From NCBI RefSeq assembly GCF_014336955.1, contig NZ_QRAI01000001.1, positions 186,001-250,000 on the forward strand: a stretch of 64,000 nucleotides of DNA, written 5' to 3'. Below the pieces are notes generated by a model. It did no database searches, had not been told where the DNA came from, and saw nothing but the letters and a program-made list of their open reading frames with translations. The stretch comes from Saccharophagus sp. K07 (GTDB lineage Bacteria > Pseudomonadota > Gammaproteobacteria > Pseudomonadales > Cellvibrionaceae). Numbering within the stretch: the first letter of the stretch is position 1; every line of letters starts with the position of its first letter. The position numbers and the translations under genes were made by a program. Of this stretch, positions 48,253-60,229 are shown one piece after another.

Positions 48253-49944
48253 TTATTTGACGAAACGGCGTCGCGCCAGCATAGGCAGTCCGACCAGCAT
48301 CAAGAACCACAAGTTGACGCTGCCACCACCGGATGACCCAGGTGAATCCGTACCCGCACCGCCACCAGAGGAGCCAGAGCCGGAAGAGCTGCCAGGTTGT
48401 CCTGGTCCATTGTTTCCAGAGGAAGAGTTTGCACCAGAAGAAGATGAGCTTGAGCTGCTGGAGGAGCTGGAACTGCTCGAACTGGAGCTGGAGCTAGAAC
48501 TGCTTGAGCTGGATGACGACACAGTGCGCACAACGATGCCGGCCAGTGTTCCGTTATCAACGCTGGAGGTTACGGCGATGCTCAAGCTGGTGTCGGTGAC
48601 GTTGGTGATGAACGGCGGCGGTGTATAAGCCACGTCATGTCCTGCCAATTGGAACAGGTCAATATTGTTCAGCACCGGCGTGCCTTCAATGGACACGCTG
48701 AAGGCGCGACGACCAGTAGCGGTTTGATAAATTTCCGCCATTTGCAATTCCACACTGTAAGTGCCGTTGGGTACGCGGATTTCGTAGCTGAAATCGCCGT
48801 AGCGTTCGGTCTGGAATACGGAGCTGCCGTTGGTAATAGTGTCCGAGGTGGAATTCGGCATGCCGCCGACGAAATCCCGGTCAGCCTGGTAGTAAATGCC
48901 GTTGTAAGATGCACCGCCTTGAGAAGCACCTACGTCTATGGCAACGACAACGTCCGCAGGATTGGGTGGGACGTAGCCGCGGGTGCCGTCAGTGACCAGA
49001 CACATTTTTCCGTCTTGGGTGCCCCAGCCATCGCCATCCGGGTCAGCGCTGATATCACAGCAGATAGCGTTGCCATCTTTGGTGCCGCAGTCAGCCGGGC
49101 CGGTTTTCACCAGGGTCAGCATTTTTTGTGCGTAGCGCTTACCCATGACGCGGACGGCAGCGGAGTTCCAGTGCAGGCGGTCGCCAATATCCCCGAGGGT
49201 CTGGCCATTTTCGGGGCCAGCGGAAACCACATGGGCGTTTTCAATAACGCTGGGCAAGCGGTTGACTTGGGTGTTGTGGCTCATGCAGCAGCCGGTGTAG
49301 GGCAGCTCGCCGGCGATAAAGGGGCTGTCCGCCGCTGAGAGACCCAAATCGCGGCGCAGATCGGTGACCAGGGTGTTTACCTTTTGCGGCCAGTCCTGTT
49401 GACCGGAGTTGCTTTCACCTTGGTGGAATATAAAGCCTTTAATCACACCCACTTGCTGCGCTTTCTTGGCGAGGTCGACGATCCAGTCGTAGCCGCGGGT
49501 GCCATTGTTGGGCGCGCCGGTAATACCGCCGTAGGGCGGAGTACAGTCGCTGCCGCAGTTCTTCAAAAAGTATTCAATCTTGGCACCGCCGTAGGCCGCC
49601 CCCACCAAACCAATTTTGATATGGTCTGGGGTGTTTTCCGCTATGTAATCACCAAAAGTATCACCGGGGCCAAGTCCACCGCCGTTGCGCGGGCAGCGAA
49701 TCAAGGTCGGTAATGCCGGGCGCCAAGTGCCATAGGCATTGTTGCCGCAGGTCTGGCTCTGCAACACCTGTACGCGCGGATGGGTGGAGTTGTCTTGGGC
49801 CTCAATAGGAGCGGCCCCTTCCATATTGGACTGGCCGATCATCAAATAAATATGGAAGTTTGGATCTGGCGCTGCGTTGGCGGCGAACGGTAACGCCATC
49901 AGCGCACCGACAAGCGCAAACTTGCTCAGGATTTTTTTGTTCAT
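48253..49944 (-). CDS. CE6-type acetyl esterase with malectin domain and GlyGly-CTERM tail
   Basis: The 563-residue precursor has a signal peptide (1-24, ending AANA). A sialate-O-acetylesterase/CE6 SGNH domain follows, with nucleophile S39 in LMIGQSNMEGAA, FIFHQGESNS and the C-terminal block GDRLHWNSAAVRV. A Cys-rich DPDGDGWGTQDG link and a malectin (CBM57) domain (about 330-470: AIDVGASQGGASYNGIYYQA, SSVFQTERYGDFSYEIRV) come next. The protein ends in a poly-Ser linker and a GGGS-hydrophobic-RRR tail fitting GlyGly-CTERM sorting. It probably deacetylates xylan. M at 49944 gives the normal signal peptide; the longer frame is rejected. Confidence 0.88.
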   Translation of the reverse strand: MNKKILSKFALVGALMALPFAANAAPDPNFHIYLMIGQSNMEGAAPIEAQDNSTHPRVQVLQSQTCGNNAYGTWRPALPTLIRCPRNGGGLGPGDTFGDYIAENTPDHIKIGLVGAAYGGAKIEYFLKNCGSDCTPPYGGITGAPNNGTRGYDWIVDLAKKAQQVGVIKGFIFHQGESNSGQQDWPQKVNTLVTDLRRDLGLSAADSPFIAGELPYTGCCMSHNTQVNRLPSVIENAHVVSAGPENGQTLGDIGDRLHWNSAAVRVMGKRYAQKMLTLVKTGPADCGTKDGNAICCDISADPDGDGWGTQDGKMCLVTDGTRGYVPPNPADVVVAIDVGASQGGASYNGIYYQADRDFVGGMPNSTSDTITNGSSVFQTERYGDFSYEIRVPNGTYSVELQMAEIYQTATGRRAFSVSIEGTPVLNNIDLFQLAGHDVAYTPPPFITNVTDTSLSIAVTSSVDNGTLAGIVVRTVSSSSSSSSSSSSSSSSSSSSSSSSSSSSGANSSSGNNGPGQPGSSSGSGSSGGGAGTDSPGSSGGGSVNLWFLMLVGLPMLARRRFVK

Positions 49945-50465
49945 TGGTGTCACCCAGTTGTTATTGTTAATTAGGCTTTCGCCGTGGGCATTCAATTTCT
50001 GCGGAAACGGCAAGCAGGAACAAATTCAGGAGTGCTACGACTTTGCTGACACTGATTTTTACCCGCAGCAGTTAGTATTTTTGTTGCTGCAACATATCTA
50101 TTTTGTACTGCTGCCGCATCGCCGCCAAAATTATCACACCCATCAAGCCCTTATCGGCATTCTAATAGCGTGCTCTTAGTACTCAAATGATGTTGGTTGT
50201 ACTCGATAGTGAATCAATTCACACTTTTGTTTCAGGGATGTGATTTTTCTTCACAATTTGTGTCGCAGTGAGAATTTTGATTTTTCGCCCTTGTTAAGGT
50301 GATTTGGAAAATATCCAAGGCGAAAAAATTCGGGATTTTGCGTGTTTGTAGGGCTTATTGTGTGTTGGGGTGACGGGGAAAGCCAAAATTATTGTGTGCT
50401 GCTGTTAGCAGCCGATGTCGAAAAACAAAGGCTGCTAACGGATACCTACAGAATATTGTGCTGTC
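49945..50465. promoter_or_regulatory. 521-bp upstream region of the CE6 esterase with palindromes
   Basis: GTGAATCAATTCAC (50209-50222) is a perfect 6-bp-arm dyad. Close to it, TGTGA and TCACA occur with a 7-base gap (50239-50255), one base longer than a standard CRP site. They lie 265-310 bp upstream of the esterase start. They may be operators; no boxes could be fixed. Confidence 0.35.
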
Positions 50466-54816: not shown

Positions 54817-55638
54817 ATGAACGACTACGACCGTATCAGCAGCGCCATAGCCTTTATGGTGACGCATATGGTGGAACAACCATCGCTCGAGGCAATCGCT
54901 GCCCATGTGGGGCTGAGTCCTTACCATTTTCAGCGTCTGTTTTGTCGCTGGGCTGGTGTGACGCCTAAACGATTTCTGCAGGTGTTGACGGTCGAGCGGG
55001 CGAAGACCTTGTTGCGCGAATCCATTCCGTTGCTGGAGGTAGCGGATACGGTTGGGCTGAGCAGCGGCTCGCGCCTTTACGACCATTTTGTGCAGTTGGA
55101 GGCAATGACTCCGGGGCAATTCAAAGCCGCAGGAGAGGGGCTTGCGATCGACTACGGCGTGCATAGCACGCCTTTTGGCGAGGCATTTATAGCGATTACG
55201 CCGCGAGGTATTTGCCGGTTGGCGTTTTTGGGCGAGGGCGGTATCGATGAGCAATTTGCGGAACTGCGTCGCCATTGGGGGCAGGCTGCTCTACAGGAAA
55301 ATCCGGGTAGCACTGAAACGTTGATTCAGCAGGTGTTCGCGGACACCAAACCGGACCGCCCCCTATCGCTCTGTGTGGCAGGAACCAATTTCCAAGTTAG
55401 CGTCTGGCGCGCACTCCTGCGTATCCCGCCGGGCGCTTTGGTCAGCTACAACCAGATCGCCCAGGCCATAGGTCATCCCAAAGCGGCGCGGGCAGTGGGT
55501 ACAGCTGTCGGCGCCAATCCCATAGCGGTTGCAATTCCCTGTCACAGGGTGATTCAGCAAAGTGGAGCGTTAGGAGGGTATCGTTGGGGCGAGATCCGCA
55601 AGCATGCGCTACACGCATGGGAGGCGGCGAGGTATTAA
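54817..55638 (+). CDS. Ada-like fusion: AraC HTH plus O6-methylguanine methyltransferase
   Basis: The 273-residue protein fuses an AraC-type DNA-binding domain (about 8-104) to a suicide DNA methyltransferase (about 112-270) whose acceptor cysteine is C242 in AIPCHRVIQ. It lacks the N-terminal Ada zinc domain, which senses methyl phosphotriesters in E. coli Ada. It should repair O6-methylguanine directly, but the inducing signal for transcription must differ. AAGGTGAG precedes the ATG. It lies 73 bp after the Lrp gene. Confidence 0.92.
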   Translation: MNDYDRISSAIAFMVTHMVEQPSLEAIAAHVGLSPYHFQRLFCRWAGVTPKRFLQVLTVERAKTLLRESIPLLEVADTVGLSSGSRLYDHFVQLEAMTPGQFKAAGEGLAIDYGVHSTPFGEAFIAITPRGICRLAFLGEGGIDEQFAELRRHWGQAALQENPGSTETLIQQVFADTKPDRPLSLCVAGTNFQVSVWRALLRIPPGALVSYNQIAQAIGHPKAARAVGTAVGANPIAVAIPCHRVIQQSGALGGYRWGEIRKHALHAWEAARY

Positions 55639-55703
55639 GGAGCATTTGGCTGGATCTTTTGCCTCCAACTGTGACGCCTTTGGCAGCTGGTAAGCGAAAA
55701 CAA

Positions 55704-55734
55704 AAAAGGGGCATTAAGCCCCTTTTGTTTTTTT
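55704..55734. terminator. Bidirectional terminator between ada-like gene and GH16 gene
   Basis: AAAAGGGGC pairs with GCCCCTTTT over a 5-base loop, followed by GTTTTTTT. A-runs on the left make it work for the convergent minus-strand gene as well. Confidence 0.88.
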
Positions 55735-55748
55735 GCAGATGTCGCGAA

Positions 55749-56786
55749 TCAAGCTTTGGTGCGGCGAGCGCGGCCCAGGGCCAACAAGCTCAACATGGAC
55801 AGGAGTGCAGCGAAATCAAATGCGCCGCCTTTGGCACCGCCGCTGGAGCCGTTGCCTGGGGGGTTGCTGCCGCTTGAAGAGCTGGAGCTGCTGCTGGATG
55901 AGCTAGAGCTGCTAGAGCTTGAAGAGCTGCTGGAAGACGATGAAGAGCTGCTGCTCGACGAGCTTGAAGATGAAGAGCTCGAAGAGGATGAGCTGCTGCT
56001 GGATGCAACGTCAGCCGGCGGAGTGCCGTTGTAACCCTCTTGGCCTTCGCGGGTCATCGCCAGAACCAGATAGCCATTGCGTACTACAGCGTTGTTCGGG
56101 TGGAAGTCCGCCCGGTTTTCATCAAAGGTCCAGTCGGCCTTGCCCCAGCGGTTGGTATCAAAGCTGTTGAAGTCATCGCGCCACGCGAATTGGAAGCCGT
56201 CGCCGGTCCAGCGGTGGAACTCGATCCAGTTAACGAACATATAAACAGGCAGGATGCTGTCGTTCCAGTCGCCTACCCAGGCTGGGTTGTTTGGTGGCCA
56301 GAAGTTAAAACGGAATTGGGCGTGGTTCGTAAGGTCACGGGCCTGATCGCCAGTGGTAGTGCGAACGACTTGGTCATCCACCAGCCAGCGTACGCTGTCA
56401 GGTCGCCATTCCAGAGTGAAGGTGTGGTACGCGTCACCAAATGAGAAGGGGTGTTGGTGTACTTGCTCGGAATGACGAGTGGTGCCATGGCCGGTGATGA
56501 TGTTGCTCTGCCAGGATTGGGCGTTGTTTTTGCCGAATACCTCGACGTCCACTTCTTCCCAGAACACTTCTGGCAATTCTGAGCCGTCTTTCCATAAGAA
56601 GAAGTTGGAGATAATCCCGCTACCTTTGGCGGCACGCATGCGCACGACGTATTTGCCGTAGAGTTCCGCGTTCAGCGTATAGATTTCCGCAGATTTATAA
56701 GGTTTGGCCAGAGCGGGAACGGATACGCCCACCAAGGCGCATAACAGGGAGGCGCCGAGAAGCAGTCGTTTATTAAAAGAGTTCAT
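55749..56786 (-). CDS. Circularly permuted GH16 beta-glucanase with GlyGly-CTERM tail
   Basis: The 345-residue precursor has a signal peptide (1-27, ending PALA), then the GH16 fold starting in the middle of the usual sequence: SAEIYTLNAELYGKYVVRMR, the catalytic stretch WEEVDVEVFGKN (nucleophile E78, D80, acid/base E82) and VGDWNDSILPVYMFVNWIEF. The segment that is N-terminal in Bacillus lichenases (FNSFDTNRWGKADWTFDENR, RNGYLVLAMTREGQ) follows at about 215-265. This order matches the naturally permuted Fibrobacter 1,3-1,4-beta-glucanase. A poly-Ser linker and a GGA-hydrophobic-RARR tail (GlyGly-CTERM-like) end the protein. An AGGA site supports the start. Confidence 0.92.
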   Translation of the reverse strand: MNSFNKRLLLGASLLCALVGVSVPALAKPYKSAEIYTLNAELYGKYVVRMRAAKGSGIISNFFLWKDGSELPEVFWEEVDVEVFGKNNAQSWQSNIITGHGTTRHSEQVHQHPFSFGDAYHTFTLEWRPDSVRWLVDDQVVRTTTGDQARDLTNHAQFRFNFWPPNNPAWVGDWNDSILPVYMFVNWIEFHRWTGDGFQFAWRDDFNSFDTNRWGKADWTFDENRADFHPNNAVVRNGYLVLAMTREGQEGYNGTPPADVASSSSSSSSSSSSSSSSSSSSSSSSSSSSSSSSSSSSSSSSSSSSGSNPPGNGSSGGAKGGAFDFAALLSMLSLLALGRARRTKA

Positions 56787-57111
56787 AGTTATCCTCGTGC
56801 ATCAGCTGTGCATCAAATGGGTTTGCCGCCTGCGGTCTGTCCAAGAGGGTTGACCGCTAACGGTCAAGGCTGCGCCCGGTCACATGGAGTGTAAAGTCTC
56901 AATACCCTCTGGGAGCAAATTGAGACGATTGACGGCGGGTTTCGCGGCCTGAGCGCCCGAAAACATCATTTTGCGATGCACTTACGGAGGTTAATCTGAG
57001 ACCCAAAATCCTTGGTTCGAAATGGAAGAAAAAGAAGGAAGATTAAAAAGACGAAATGGTCCACAAGCGCCTATTCGGCGCTCGTCGGTTCAGAGGAAGA
57101 TTGGGATTGTC
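56787..57111. promoter_or_regulatory. Upstream region of the GH16 gene with two dyads
   Basis: TTGACCGCTAACGGTCAA (56850-56867) is a perfect 7-bp-arm palindrome 64-81 bp upstream of the start codon. GTCTCAAT at 56896-56903 is mirrored by ATTGAGAC at 56919-56926, and TGAGAC recurs near 56997. These are good candidates for operator sites of a glucan-responsive regulator, possibly the AraC protein encoded just upstream. Confidence 0.5.
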
Positions 57112-58338
57112 TTAATGAGAGTTTTGCGGCACCAGCTCAGCGTCTATGTCATGCCTCTGCTGGTAGTCGTTTGCTTGCTCGCGGTATGCGGTGGGTGTTA
57201 CGCCAACAAAAGATTTAAAAAAACGATTAAAGGTTGCTTTGCTGTTAAAACCGGAACGCTGACCAACTTCCAAAATCGTCAGTGCCTGGGATGTGGGATC
57301 GCGCAGTAGGCGCTTGGCTTCTTCAATCCGGAATCGGTTGATGTATTCCTGATAATTCTGTTCAAAACAACGGTTGATCGCGAGCGATACTTGGCGCGGC
57401 GGAGCCTGTAAAAGATGCGCGAAACGCTCCAGGGTCAGGCGTGAATTTAAATAAGGTTTTTCCGCCAGCATAAAACGGTCGATGCGTTGTGCAAGGGTGA
57501 GAATGTCTGCGTCGAGTTCTGCGTCGGTTGAGGGAATTGGTTCGGCGGTTTCGAGAGGATTTTCTGCAATTTCCTCTCGTGTAACCGGTATTGGTATCAA
57601 CGAGCTTGATGCTTCGGTATTGCTAAACCACAGTGCAATCACCAGCGTGAGGGTCATGTAATTGCCGAAAATACCCATCACATCGGCAGTGCCGACCGGC
57701 AACTGCTGGCCGAGAATGTGGGTCATTAAAATCCAGCCCCAGATAATGCAAAAGCCGGCGTAAAGAGAGAGTGCGCGCTTGGCTTTTGCGGGTAAATCCG
57801 AGTGGGTTTTTAAATATTCAAAAATAAGTGTGACACAGGTAACGCCGTAAATCAGTGGCATTAATTTTTTGAGGGTCAGGAATAGCAAAAAATAAGCCTC
57901 GGTTTTACCAAAAATGGCCATTTCCAGAACCAAGTCAATTTGCTGATCGAGAGGATACCTGTAGCAGGCCCAATATAAATACACAGGCGTGGCCAATGCG
58001 GGTAGCAAATGGAATAAATCCGCCCGCCGAATGGGATTTTCCGGCTCGGTTTGTGAACGGATCAACCAATATAAAACCGGACCTATGGCAAAGGAGGCGA
58101 AACTGAAAATGGTGGGCAGCCAAGGGGAGAGATTAAATGCTGCGTATTTGATCGAATCGCCCCAAAACAGCAATGTGTCTATGCAAATAAAGGCATTCAG
58201 CAGGAAAAAAATCGCCATAGAGGTGCGCACAGCTCGAGCCAGGCCCGTAGAAAGCGCCGAGCGCAGAGACAGCATAAAGCTGATGCCGATCACCAGCATC
58301 AACACAACATCATGGCCGTTAAATAAAAGATCTTTCAT
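57112..58338 (-). CDS. AraC-family regulator with membrane-spanning N-terminus
   Basis: The 408-residue protein has about seven hydrophobic helices in residues 1-240 and a C-terminal AraC DNA-binding domain (about 290-395: ERFAHLLQAPPRQVSLAINR, TILEVGQRSGFNSKATFNRF and VGVTPTAYRE). Such one-component membrane regulators often sense extracellular or lipid-soluble signals. It lies between GH16 and a malectin-CE1 esterase, so control of these polysaccharide genes is plausible but unproven. Confidence 0.88.
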   Translation of the reverse strand: MKDLLFNGHDVVLMLVIGISFMLSLRSALSTGLARAVRTSMAIFFLLNAFICIDTLLFWGDSIKYAAFNLSPWLPTIFSFASFAIGPVLYWLIRSQTEPENPIRRADLFHLLPALATPVYLYWACYRYPLDQQIDLVLEMAIFGKTEAYFLLFLTLKKLMPLIYGVTCVTLIFEYLKTHSDLPAKAKRALSLYAGFCIIWGWILMTHILGQQLPVGTADVMGIFGNYMTLTLVIALWFSNTEASSSLIPIPVTREEIAENPLETAEPIPSTDAELDADILTLAQRIDRFMLAEKPYLNSRLTLERFAHLLQAPPRQVSLAINRCFEQNYQEYINRFRIEEAKRLLRDPTSQALTILEVGQRSGFNSKATFNRFFKSFVGVTPTAYREQANDYQQRHDIDAELVPQNSH

Positions 58339-58720
58339 GCCTTTATTTATTGTCTTCCAGTACTAGTCAGATTTGCGAAAACTGCAGCGTCGCGCCGCAG
58401 CGCCCATTAACTAAAAACCAGAAAGAATCCGCGTCTTTTGTCTGATATTTGAGATTGGCAAATAAGAAGGGGGTTGTCGTTGATGCTGATCACAAGCTGA
58501 TCGCTGGTAATCGGCAATAGATTTTGTGCGCTATGTCTTGGAAAACCTGAGTTAAGCTTCCCATAAACATTATCATAATATGATATTGTTTCCCCCATAT
58601 ATAGCTAGAAGTCTCGCAAAATTCCGGTAAGCGCCGGCATTTTGTGATGGCTTCTAATAACTCTGGGACCAGTGCGGCAGAGAGTCGCGCTTGGCTCGTC
58701 TGATTATGGGGAAGCAAATA
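58339..58720. promoter_or_regulatory. Divergent region between AraC regulator and CE1 esterase
   Basis: TATCATAATATGATA (58571-58585) is a perfect dyad located about 135 bp upstream of the esterase start. The region is otherwise without gene or RNA. GGGGA near the ATG at 58721 serves as ribosome site. Confidence 0.4.
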
Positions 58721-60229
58721 ATGAAGAGCTGCGAAATACTAACGCGATTGGCGGGAATCGCTGTCGCCACAAGTTTGACTTTGACCGGATGTGGAAGCCC
58801 AGGTGGCTCCTCGTCTGGAGAACCTTCATCGAGCAGTAGTTCATCATCCAGCTCGTCGTCTTCCAGTTCCAGCAGCTCCTCATCGAGCAGTTCATCCAGC
58901 AGCAGTTCTTCAAGCAGCTCATCCAGTTCTTCATCGGGCGGCGGTATTCCGGCTGGTTCGACTTTGGTTTATGCGTTAAATGCTGGCGGCGCTGCAGTGA
59001 CCGCTGGTGGAATCCAGTACAACGCGGACCGATTTGCAACTGGCGGTTCACCCAACTCCACGACCGATACCATCAGCGGCACGGATGTAGGCGTGTTGTA
59101 TCAGACTGAGCGCTACGGCAAATACAAATATGAAATTCCGGTAACCAATTCTTCTTACAGCCTGAAATTGCGTTTTGTGGAGTTGTTTCAAACCGCAGCT
59201 AACGCCCGACTGTTCAGTGTAACGGTGGAAGGTCAGCCCGTATTTACCGACCTGGATTTGTATACAACAGTGGGCCACGACAAGGCTTACGACGTAGTAG
59301 TGCCGCCAGTGCAGGTGGCGGATGAAAGTCTGACTATTGAGCTGACTGCCAGCATCGACAACGCCACTATCAGCGCCGTGGAAGTTTATTCCAACACCGG
59401 CGGTAAATTTGTTGAGCCACCTGAGCCTGAGCCGGGCGCCGTTGTGCCCAGCGCCGGTTGCGGTAAGGCGCGCACCGTGCAAGATGGTCGCATCAACATC
59501 AATGTCGGTGGCACCAACCGTTCTTATATCCTGCGTACGCCCAGCAACTACAACAACCAGACACCTTATCGCTTGATCTTCGCTTATCACTGGCTGGGAG
59601 GTAACGCGAACCAGGTTGCTCAGGGCGGTCAGGGCGGTTCTACCGAAGATCCTTTCTACGGTTTGTGGGACTTGGCTAACAACTCCACTATTTTCGTTGC
59701 GCCGGAAGGTCTGGACTCTGGCTGGGCTAACACTGGCGGTCGCGACTTGGCGTTGACCGATGAAATCCTCAATCAAGTGCAAAACGGTCTGTGTATCGAT
59801 AAGTCACGCATTTTTGCCACCGGATTCAGTTACGGTGCCGGTATGTCGAACGCAATCGCTTGTGCTCGCGCGGATGTTTTCCGCGGTGTTGCTCTTTACG
59901 CTGGTGCACAGTTGAGTGGTTGTGACGGCGGTACTGCACCAATCGCATATTTCGGTGCGCACGGCATCTTTGACTCAGTGTTGAATATTTCTCAAGGCCG
60001 CTCAATCCGCGACCGCATCGCGCGCAACAACGGCTGCGCCGCAACCAATGCGCCTGAACCAGCACGCGGAAGTGGTACACACATTTGTACATCCTTCCAA
60101 GGCTGCCGCGAGGGATATCCAGTGCGCTGGTGTGCATTTGACGGTGACCACAACCCGACAGAAAAAGATCGCGGACAAGCCAAATCCTGGATTCCTGGAG
60201 AAGCTTGGCAATTTATCAGTCAGTTCTAA
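58721..60229 (+). CDS. Lipoprotein esterase: Ser linker, malectin domain, CE1
   Basis: The 502-residue lipoprotein (lipobox LTLTGC) carries a poly-Ser linker (about 35-72), a malectin (CBM57) domain (about 82-228: VGVLYQTERYGKYKYEIPV) and a C-terminal CE1/feruloyl-esterase hydrolase with nucleophile S370 in GFSYGAGM. Its final GEAWQFISQF mirrors KESWKFFSQF of the esterase at 38284. The malectin domain is close to the one in the CE6 protein at 48253, which shows module swapping. It probably acts on feruloylated or acetylated xylan at the cell surface. ATG 58721 is chosen over 58691 because it gives the normal signal peptide. Confidence 0.88.
   Translation: MKSCEILTRLAGIAVATSLTLTGCGSPGGSSSGEPSSSSSSSSSSSSSSSSSSSSSSSSSSSSSSSSSSSSSGGGIPAGSTLVYALNAGGAAVTAGGIQYNADRFATGGSPNSTTDTISGTDVGVLYQTERYGKYKYEIPVTNSSYSLKLRFVELFQTAANARLFSVTVEGQPVFTDLDLYTTVGHDKAYDVVVPPVQVADESLTIELTASIDNATISAVEVYSNTGGKFVEPPEPEPGAVVPSAGCGKARTVQDGRININVGGTNRSYILRTPSNYNNQTPYRLIFAYHWLGGNANQVAQGGQGGSTEDPFYGLWDLANNSTIFVAPEGLDSGWANTGGRDLALTDEILNQVQNGLCIDKSRIFATGFSYGAGMSNAIACARADVFRGVALYAGAQLSGCDGGTAPIAYFGAHGIFDSVLNISQGRSIRDRIARNNGCAATNAPEPARGSGTHICTSFQGCREGYPVRWCAFDGDHNPTEKDRGQAKSWIPGEAWQFISQF

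Follow-up and report, generated by a model that had tools for sequence, protein, structure and literature searches.

The open reading frame at 55749-56786 of the window (the whole stretch of DNA analysed, 64,000 nucleotides) is confirmed as a natural circular permutation of one GH16 jelly-roll, with its blocks in the order of the Fibrobacter succinogenes glucanase. Our overall reading, held with considerable confidence, is that the gene encodes a secreted and probably surface-anchored GH16 endo-beta-glucanase, that its fold is a permuted Bacillus-type licheninase fold cut at the same place as in the Fibrobacter enzyme, and that this permutation arose once. The features of the gene and its surroundings are given in Table 1.

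Table 1. Features of the glucanase gene and its flanks (positions in the window; aa, residues of the glucanase)
Feature	Position	Strand	Basis
Permuted GH16 glucanase ORF, 345 aa + stop, ATG start	55749..56786	-	ORF reading
Probable signal peptide, aa 1-27	56706..56786	-	cleavage after ALA, read by eye
Catalytic block, aa 28-195 (at the C-terminus in Bacillus lichenases)	56202..56705	-	PF00722; aligns to native 1gbg residues 56-214
Catalytic motif E78-V-D80-V-E82 (EXDXE, no beta-bulge)	56541..56555	-	alignment; E78 (nucleophile) and E82 (acid/base) assigned by homology
Displaced block, aa 196-259 (at the N-terminus in Bacillus lichenases)	56010..56201	-	similarity to L001 N-terminus; block order CN
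Poly-Ser linker, 44 uninterrupted serines, aa 262-305	55872..56003	-	sequence
GlyGly-CTERM-like tail, aa 316-345	55752..55841	-	tripartite (Gly-rich/hydrophobic/basic) by eye
Terminator-like hairpin just past stop codon, T-rich tails on both strands	55704..55726	.	sequence scan
Membrane-type AraC-family regulator gene, upstream of glucanase	57112..58338	-	PF12833, 62.5 bits

Block order and fold of the glucanase

The reading frame contains a single Pfam family, GH16 PF00722 (83.3 bits against a cut-off of 22), as one domain spanning residues 27-259 of 345, and this domain is 79-80% identical in both same-genus genomes searched. In the alignment the mature protein starts level with the solved Fibrobacter domain.

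Among solved structures, the best six distinct sequences were all F. succinogenes 1,3-1,4-beta-glucanase (E 1e-65 to 6.8e-64). These matches, led by 1mve (E=1e-65), whose structure paper reportedly calls it a natural circularly permuted jelly-roll in its title, are colinear over the whole domain (residues 27/28-259). Native Bacillus-type lichenases, in contrast, match one block only, within residues 18-191 (E 1.8e-20 to 2.6e-15). Since the native lichenases match a single block and the Fibrobacter enzyme matches end to end, the order is the catalytic block (residues 28-195) followed by the N-type block (196-259). The first-pass annotation had proposed from the letters alone that the block standing N-terminally in Bacillus enzymes lies behind the E-V-D-V-E block, in the Fibrobacter order; both points hold, the second down to the same junction.

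The same genome encodes a normal-order GH16 cousin, L001 (G000:C2:226827-227411). In its native order the window domain aligns with L001 at a score of 160 and covers only L001 63-234, whereas after rotation the score rises to 230 and the alignment covers L001 1-234. Taken by itself, the displaced N-type block reaches a score of 88 with the L001 N-terminus, compared with a mean of 27.8 and a maximum of 46 over 500 shuffles (Z 13.1). With the displaced block scoring so far above the shuffles, and with the gain upon rotation, the permuted order is not a matter of chance. Against the normal-order beta-glucanase model of NCBIfam (BglS, NF047856) the window domain reaches 100.4 bits, below the cut-off of 300.

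A structural model generated using AlphaFold2 on 30 aligned permuted sequences is one compact jelly-roll (pLDDT 96.5, pTM 0.92), the fold of GH16 members, with its termini at the permuted site; this was the structural check named in the annotation, and no separate domains appeared. In the model of L001 (7 sequences, pLDDT 81.8) the strands of the N-type block come first. Structure comparison (VIA) placed the window model on Fibrobacter chains at Z 36.2-37.5 over 231-233 residues at 1.1-1.2 A (for 3axd, Z 37.5, 231 residues, 1.1 A). It also placed the model on the engineered permutants 1cpm and 1cpn at Z 29.3-29.4 over 204-208 residues (for 1cpn, Z 29.4, 204 residues, 1.6 A). Native 1gbg gave Z 17.8 over 158 residues only, with model residues 1-167 on chain residues 56-214. 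The nearly full match to 1cpn and 1cpm set against the partial match to 1gbg isolates chain order as the difference and puts the natural cut in about the same loop as the engineered one. For the engineered proteins the permutation site is given as residue 59 of 2AYH (PMC2395249), and the natural cut falls within about three residues of it. The new termini are placed in the loop around residues 56-59 of the Bacillus enzyme, and a short loop at about residues 194-198 joins the old termini.

Distribution of permuted genes and possible transfer between phyla

In the window's family, a match at E up to 1e-28 occurs in 9 of 32 genera and in 41 of 144 genomes, that of G402 being partial. The family appears to be Cellvibrionaceae, since matches in G003 and in G384, the genome with the Cellvibrio mixtus J3-8 locus L113, fall at the same positions. 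Five of 293 genomes drawn from the order match, all within this family. At the level of the class, 11 of 274 genomes match at 1e-10: the window's own, G238 with locus L118, one with the normal-order L119, and eight in which only the catalytic block was detected. L118 is divergent; its assignment as permuted was made by eye, the profile having missed its tail block.

In a wider search of genome contigs with a Fibrobacter-type profile, permuted genes came from records with the labels Fibrobacter and relatives, Sorangium and Polyangiaceae; among the matches listed are also Cytophagales, Flavobacteriales, Paludibacteraceae, Prevotella, Verrucomicrobia, Kiritimatiellae, Colwelliaceae and Cellvibrio, and labels of metagenome-assembled genomes may be wrong through binning. 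All of the best 80 of 383 relatives have at their loci an ORF with the catalytic block before the N-type block (CN) and no other order, a figure that shows presence and no order frequency, as the ranking was against a permuted query headed by the Fibrobacter enzyme. In a survey of block order, 220 ORFs with a catalytic block above 15 bits comprised 179 CN, 21 of normal order (NC) and 20 with the catalytic block only; the loci overlap, and the distinct catalytic stretches number 126, 17 and 20, respectively. The last class means that the N-type block was missed by the profile and says nothing on order, and the CN assignment of L186 was made on marginal scores of 15 and 16 bits. Intermediates of permutation with a doubled block (NCN or CNC) were absent from 2237 ORFs of at least 120 residues in 189 loci. 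Sorangium-type genomes hold normal-order cousins too (L154, L155, L180, L181). Viral contigs yielded one relative among 200 stretches, in normal order, and none of 11 matching plasmid records covered 80% of the query.

Several of these loci have features of their own. The window's genome holds a second permuted GH16, L030 (G000:C2:714768-715502), a deep branch of the permuted group within an 899-residue ORF in which CBM6/CBM35-like modules follow the domain. Permuted GH16 genes stand in tandem pairs, with some 0.5-0.6 kb between the two domains, at G003:C14:9886-11884, G034:C1:947141-949102 and G051:C2:597250-599198. Divergent permuted branches (L152, L118, L150, L183, L149) in Bacteroidota, Gammaproteobacteria, Polyangiaceae and Chitinispirillaceae keep the catalytic motif intact. 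In the viral contig L116 and the Aliarcobacter plasmid L189, a normal-order GH16 domain stands at the C-terminus of a long protein, the N-terminal part of which presumably resembles a family 25 glycosyltransferase. Finally, a gene in a record labelled Prevotella sp. (L086:4001-4720) is 83% identical to the Fibrobacter glucanase, with a C-terminal part that is different and Prevotella-looking by eye; unless the record is mis-binned, this is likely a recent transfer.

To place the window gene, trees were built with the blocks rotated into register, in sets of 76 and 72 rows. The larger set includes five identical-row pairs, four of which are one ORF taken twice from overlapping loci and one (L179/L113) the same gene. 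The smaller set drops L033, which has a very long branch, and L108, L113 and L115, which are the same as or near others; its rows, 53 permuted and 19 of normal order, were chosen by hand from the loci, with L118 placed as permuted by eye. Here the window gene falls into a clade of nine rows (100/100) that is distinct from the Fibrobacter clade. In approximately unbiased (AU) tests, for which the groups were named after the first tree had been seen, the window clade was joined in turn to L001-type cousins, the Fibrobacter clade and the Cellvibrio clade. The join with the Fibrobacter clade (13 rows, of which two carry a Bacteroidota label) was not rejected (p-AU 0.17), nor was that with the Cellvibrio clade (10 rows; p-AU 0.42).

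The scatter of permuted genes over phyla suggests transfers, and to this extent the gene transfer raised in the first-pass annotation may have taken place; a Fibrobacter source in particular is less likely. Direct horizontal transfer from a Fibrobacter relative into the window's family would suit the patchy presence of the gene there, the sister relation that the AU test retains and the existence of the Prevotella-labelled record. It is nevertheless unlikely: the free tree puts the window clade nearer to Sorangium-type sequences (weakly, 75/57) with the Fibrobacter clade apart, the window gene is 48% identical to Fibrobacter L036 versus 50-57% to Sorangium-type sequences, and the locus is syntenic in a same-genus genome. 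Most likely the permuted gene was passed on by descent within the window's family together with gene transfer between phyla, in one direction or the other.

Active site, C-terminal tail and neighbouring regulator gene

The three motif residues E78, D80 and E82 align with E56, D58 and E60 of the Fibrobacter enzyme, and the equivalents of Fibrobacter F40, W54, Q70, N72, E85, R137, W141, W148 and W203 are kept. Other positions have changed from Fibrobacter to the window protein: Y42 to W65, N44 to D67, Q81 to T103 and V18 to E41. Mutants of the Fibrobacter glucanase at F40, W203, V18 and E85 are named in PDB titles. With cleft positions changed, the fine specificity could differ from that of the Fibrobacter enzyme.

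The usual GH16 retaining mechanism is expected, because the permutation would leave fold and cleft intact. E78 would act as the nucleophile and E82 as the acid/base, and beta-1,4 bonds would be cut in mixed-linkage beta-1,3-1,4-glucan of the cereal type, which is probably the substrate. A GH16 enzyme of another specificity, for example for beta-1,3-glucan or xyloglucan, is distinctly improbable. Several cleft positions are unlike those of the Fibrobacter enzyme, and the family, whose catalytic motif is EXDXE or EXDXXE, is described as functionally diverse in the GH16 subfamily roadmap (PMC6827312); against this reading, the window protein has the EXDXE motif without the laminarinase beta-bulge and its best solved matches are 1,3-1,4-glucanases.

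Behind the domain, the poly-Ser linker announced in the annotation is present as described. The GlyGly-CTERM tail claimed there is more ambiguous: it has the tripartite look and a rhombosortase is encoded in the genome (128.9 bits for TIGR03902, whose cut-off of 84 is reached in none of 14 control genomes), but the GlyGly-CTERM model TIGR03501 does not match the tail, for which no family was found at E up to 10. A search of the whole genome with TIGR03501 hit three other places, two of them over the cut-off, and not the window gene. Surface anchoring of the glucanase via rhombosortase is what we infer from the tail and the enzyme together. In 6 of 8 permuted relatives scanned, CBM2, CBM5/12, CBM10 or CBM6 modules follow the domain, where the window gene has the serines and the GlyGly-CTERM-like tail. 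Two other poly-Ser proteins are encoded in the window: a SASA esterase with a malectin domain (48253-50013), whose GlyGly-CTERM-like tail scores 14.8 bits against a cut-off of 15.5, and a malectin and esterase-like protein (58691-60229).

The AraC-type protein encoded upstream has hydrophobic stretches at residues 4-31, 36-61 and 220-238 and a C-terminal helix-turn-helix. A homologue adjoins the glucanase in the window and in 10 of 11 close relatives, which makes 11 of the 12 loci L006-L017; the exception, L017, has no AraC-type neighbour within its 1.5 kb flank. In one same-genus genome (G002) the genes conserved around the glucanase are Ada-like, Lrp, leuA, phosphoglucomutase, SASA esterase, malectin-esterase and AraC-type; in the other (G001) they are Ada-like, AraC-type and malectin-esterase-like. 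In each of four genomes from other genera, the only neighbour found in place beside the glucanase is the AraC-type gene, and two of the four have malectin or esterase matches at least 3 kb away. The window's genome holds only one other AraC-type copy, 30% identical, so that the pairing with the glucanase is no effect of abundance. This recurrent adjacency suggests that the AraC-type gene controls the glucanase. No promoter-like sites were found in 55600-57200. AraC-type homologues also stand beside Cellvibrio permuted genes and beside the normal-order GH16 genes L022 and L162; if the control is real, the regulatory pairing would be independent of chain order.

Origin of the permutation and comparison with known systems

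Permutation arising once, long ago, is the most likely course. All permuted rows, the window gene among them, fall on one side of one branch, with support of 100/97 in the 76-row tree and 94/97 in the 72-row tree, which answers the phylogenetic check named in the annotation. Support for the deep branches within the permuted group is weak. The 72-row tree, where support for the group falls to 94, carries a warning that long branches meet (L024; L189/L116), which makes the root of the permuted group unsure. The junction is also shared: of the 179 CN ORFs, 155 open on position 1-2 of the catalytic profile and 166 run to position 64-65 of its N-type counterpart; the others may be truncated at contig ends or divergent.

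The annotation's other suggestion, a second permutation event, is unlikely. In its most specific form, the window lineage would have been permuted independently of the Fibrobacter enzyme, from an L001-type normal-order GH16 of the same genome. Such a gene is indeed at hand in L001, and similar cousins occur in Sorangium-type genomes. The prospect is nonetheless very remote: holding the window clade (9 rows) with the 7 normal-order L001-type cousins is rejected (p-AU 0.0104, lnL 41 lower; groups named once the tree had been seen), the junction is common to the aligned permuted rows, and the window domain is 47% identical to the Fibrobacter enzyme over 232 aligned residues versus 27% to L001 over one block. 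There is next to no chance that the two blocks are separate domains, or that their order comes from misassembly or a frame error, given the single compact domain predicted and the recurrence of CN order across independently assembled genomes.

A single origin also frames a broader picture, for which we put the chances at about even. The permuted enzymes would form a large GH16 clade of single ancient origin in at least four phyla, whose divergent branches (L150/L183-type in Polyangiaceae; L152/L118-type in Bacteroidota and a gammaproteobacterium) may have new specificities, and which in the window's family is tied to a membrane AraC-type regulator also found beside normal-order GH16. Both chain orders of one enzyme fold are kept in a single genome, and the natural permutation has counterparts in Bacillus permutants that were engineered and solved. 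The wide clade and its living normal-order cousins provide a clean set for asking how a permutation gets fixed and what it does to stability and specificity; the same set serves the question of how often such genes move between plant-polymer degraders.

Compared with known systems, the window enzyme is closest to the F. succinogenes 1,3-1,4-beta-D-glucanase (1mve, 1zm1, 3axd). Like it, it is a single domain in which the catalytic block precedes the N-type block, with the same cut and junction, the same fold and the same catalytic residues. It differs in its phylum, in several cleft residues, in its poly-Ser and GlyGly-CTERM-like tail and in the adjoining AraC-type gene. L001 is homologous in both blocks, but has the normal order, an N-terminal poly-Ser linker and a separate clade. 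In fungi, a circular permutation of a beta-glucanase has reportedly been described for TOS1. Bacillus-type licheninases (1gbg, 3o5s, 2ayh) share the jelly-roll and the EXDXE site, with the catalytic block aligned over 158 residues, but have the normal order, their first ~55 residues corresponding to the C-terminal block of the window protein; 1GBG is assigned to CAZy GH16_21 in the roadmap (PMC6827312). The engineered 1CPM/1CPN match the window model structurally over nearly its full length, but are man-made and 27-28% identical. A literature search at title and abstract level, with subscription papers mostly outside it, found no report of a permuted bacterial GH16 outside Fibrobacter, and the terms 'permut' and 'Fibrobacter' are absent from the main text of the roadmap in a term search (PMC6827312). 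The window enzyme is thus a member of an already known permuted kind, and the clade to which it belongs is wider than the Fibrobacter example alone suggests.
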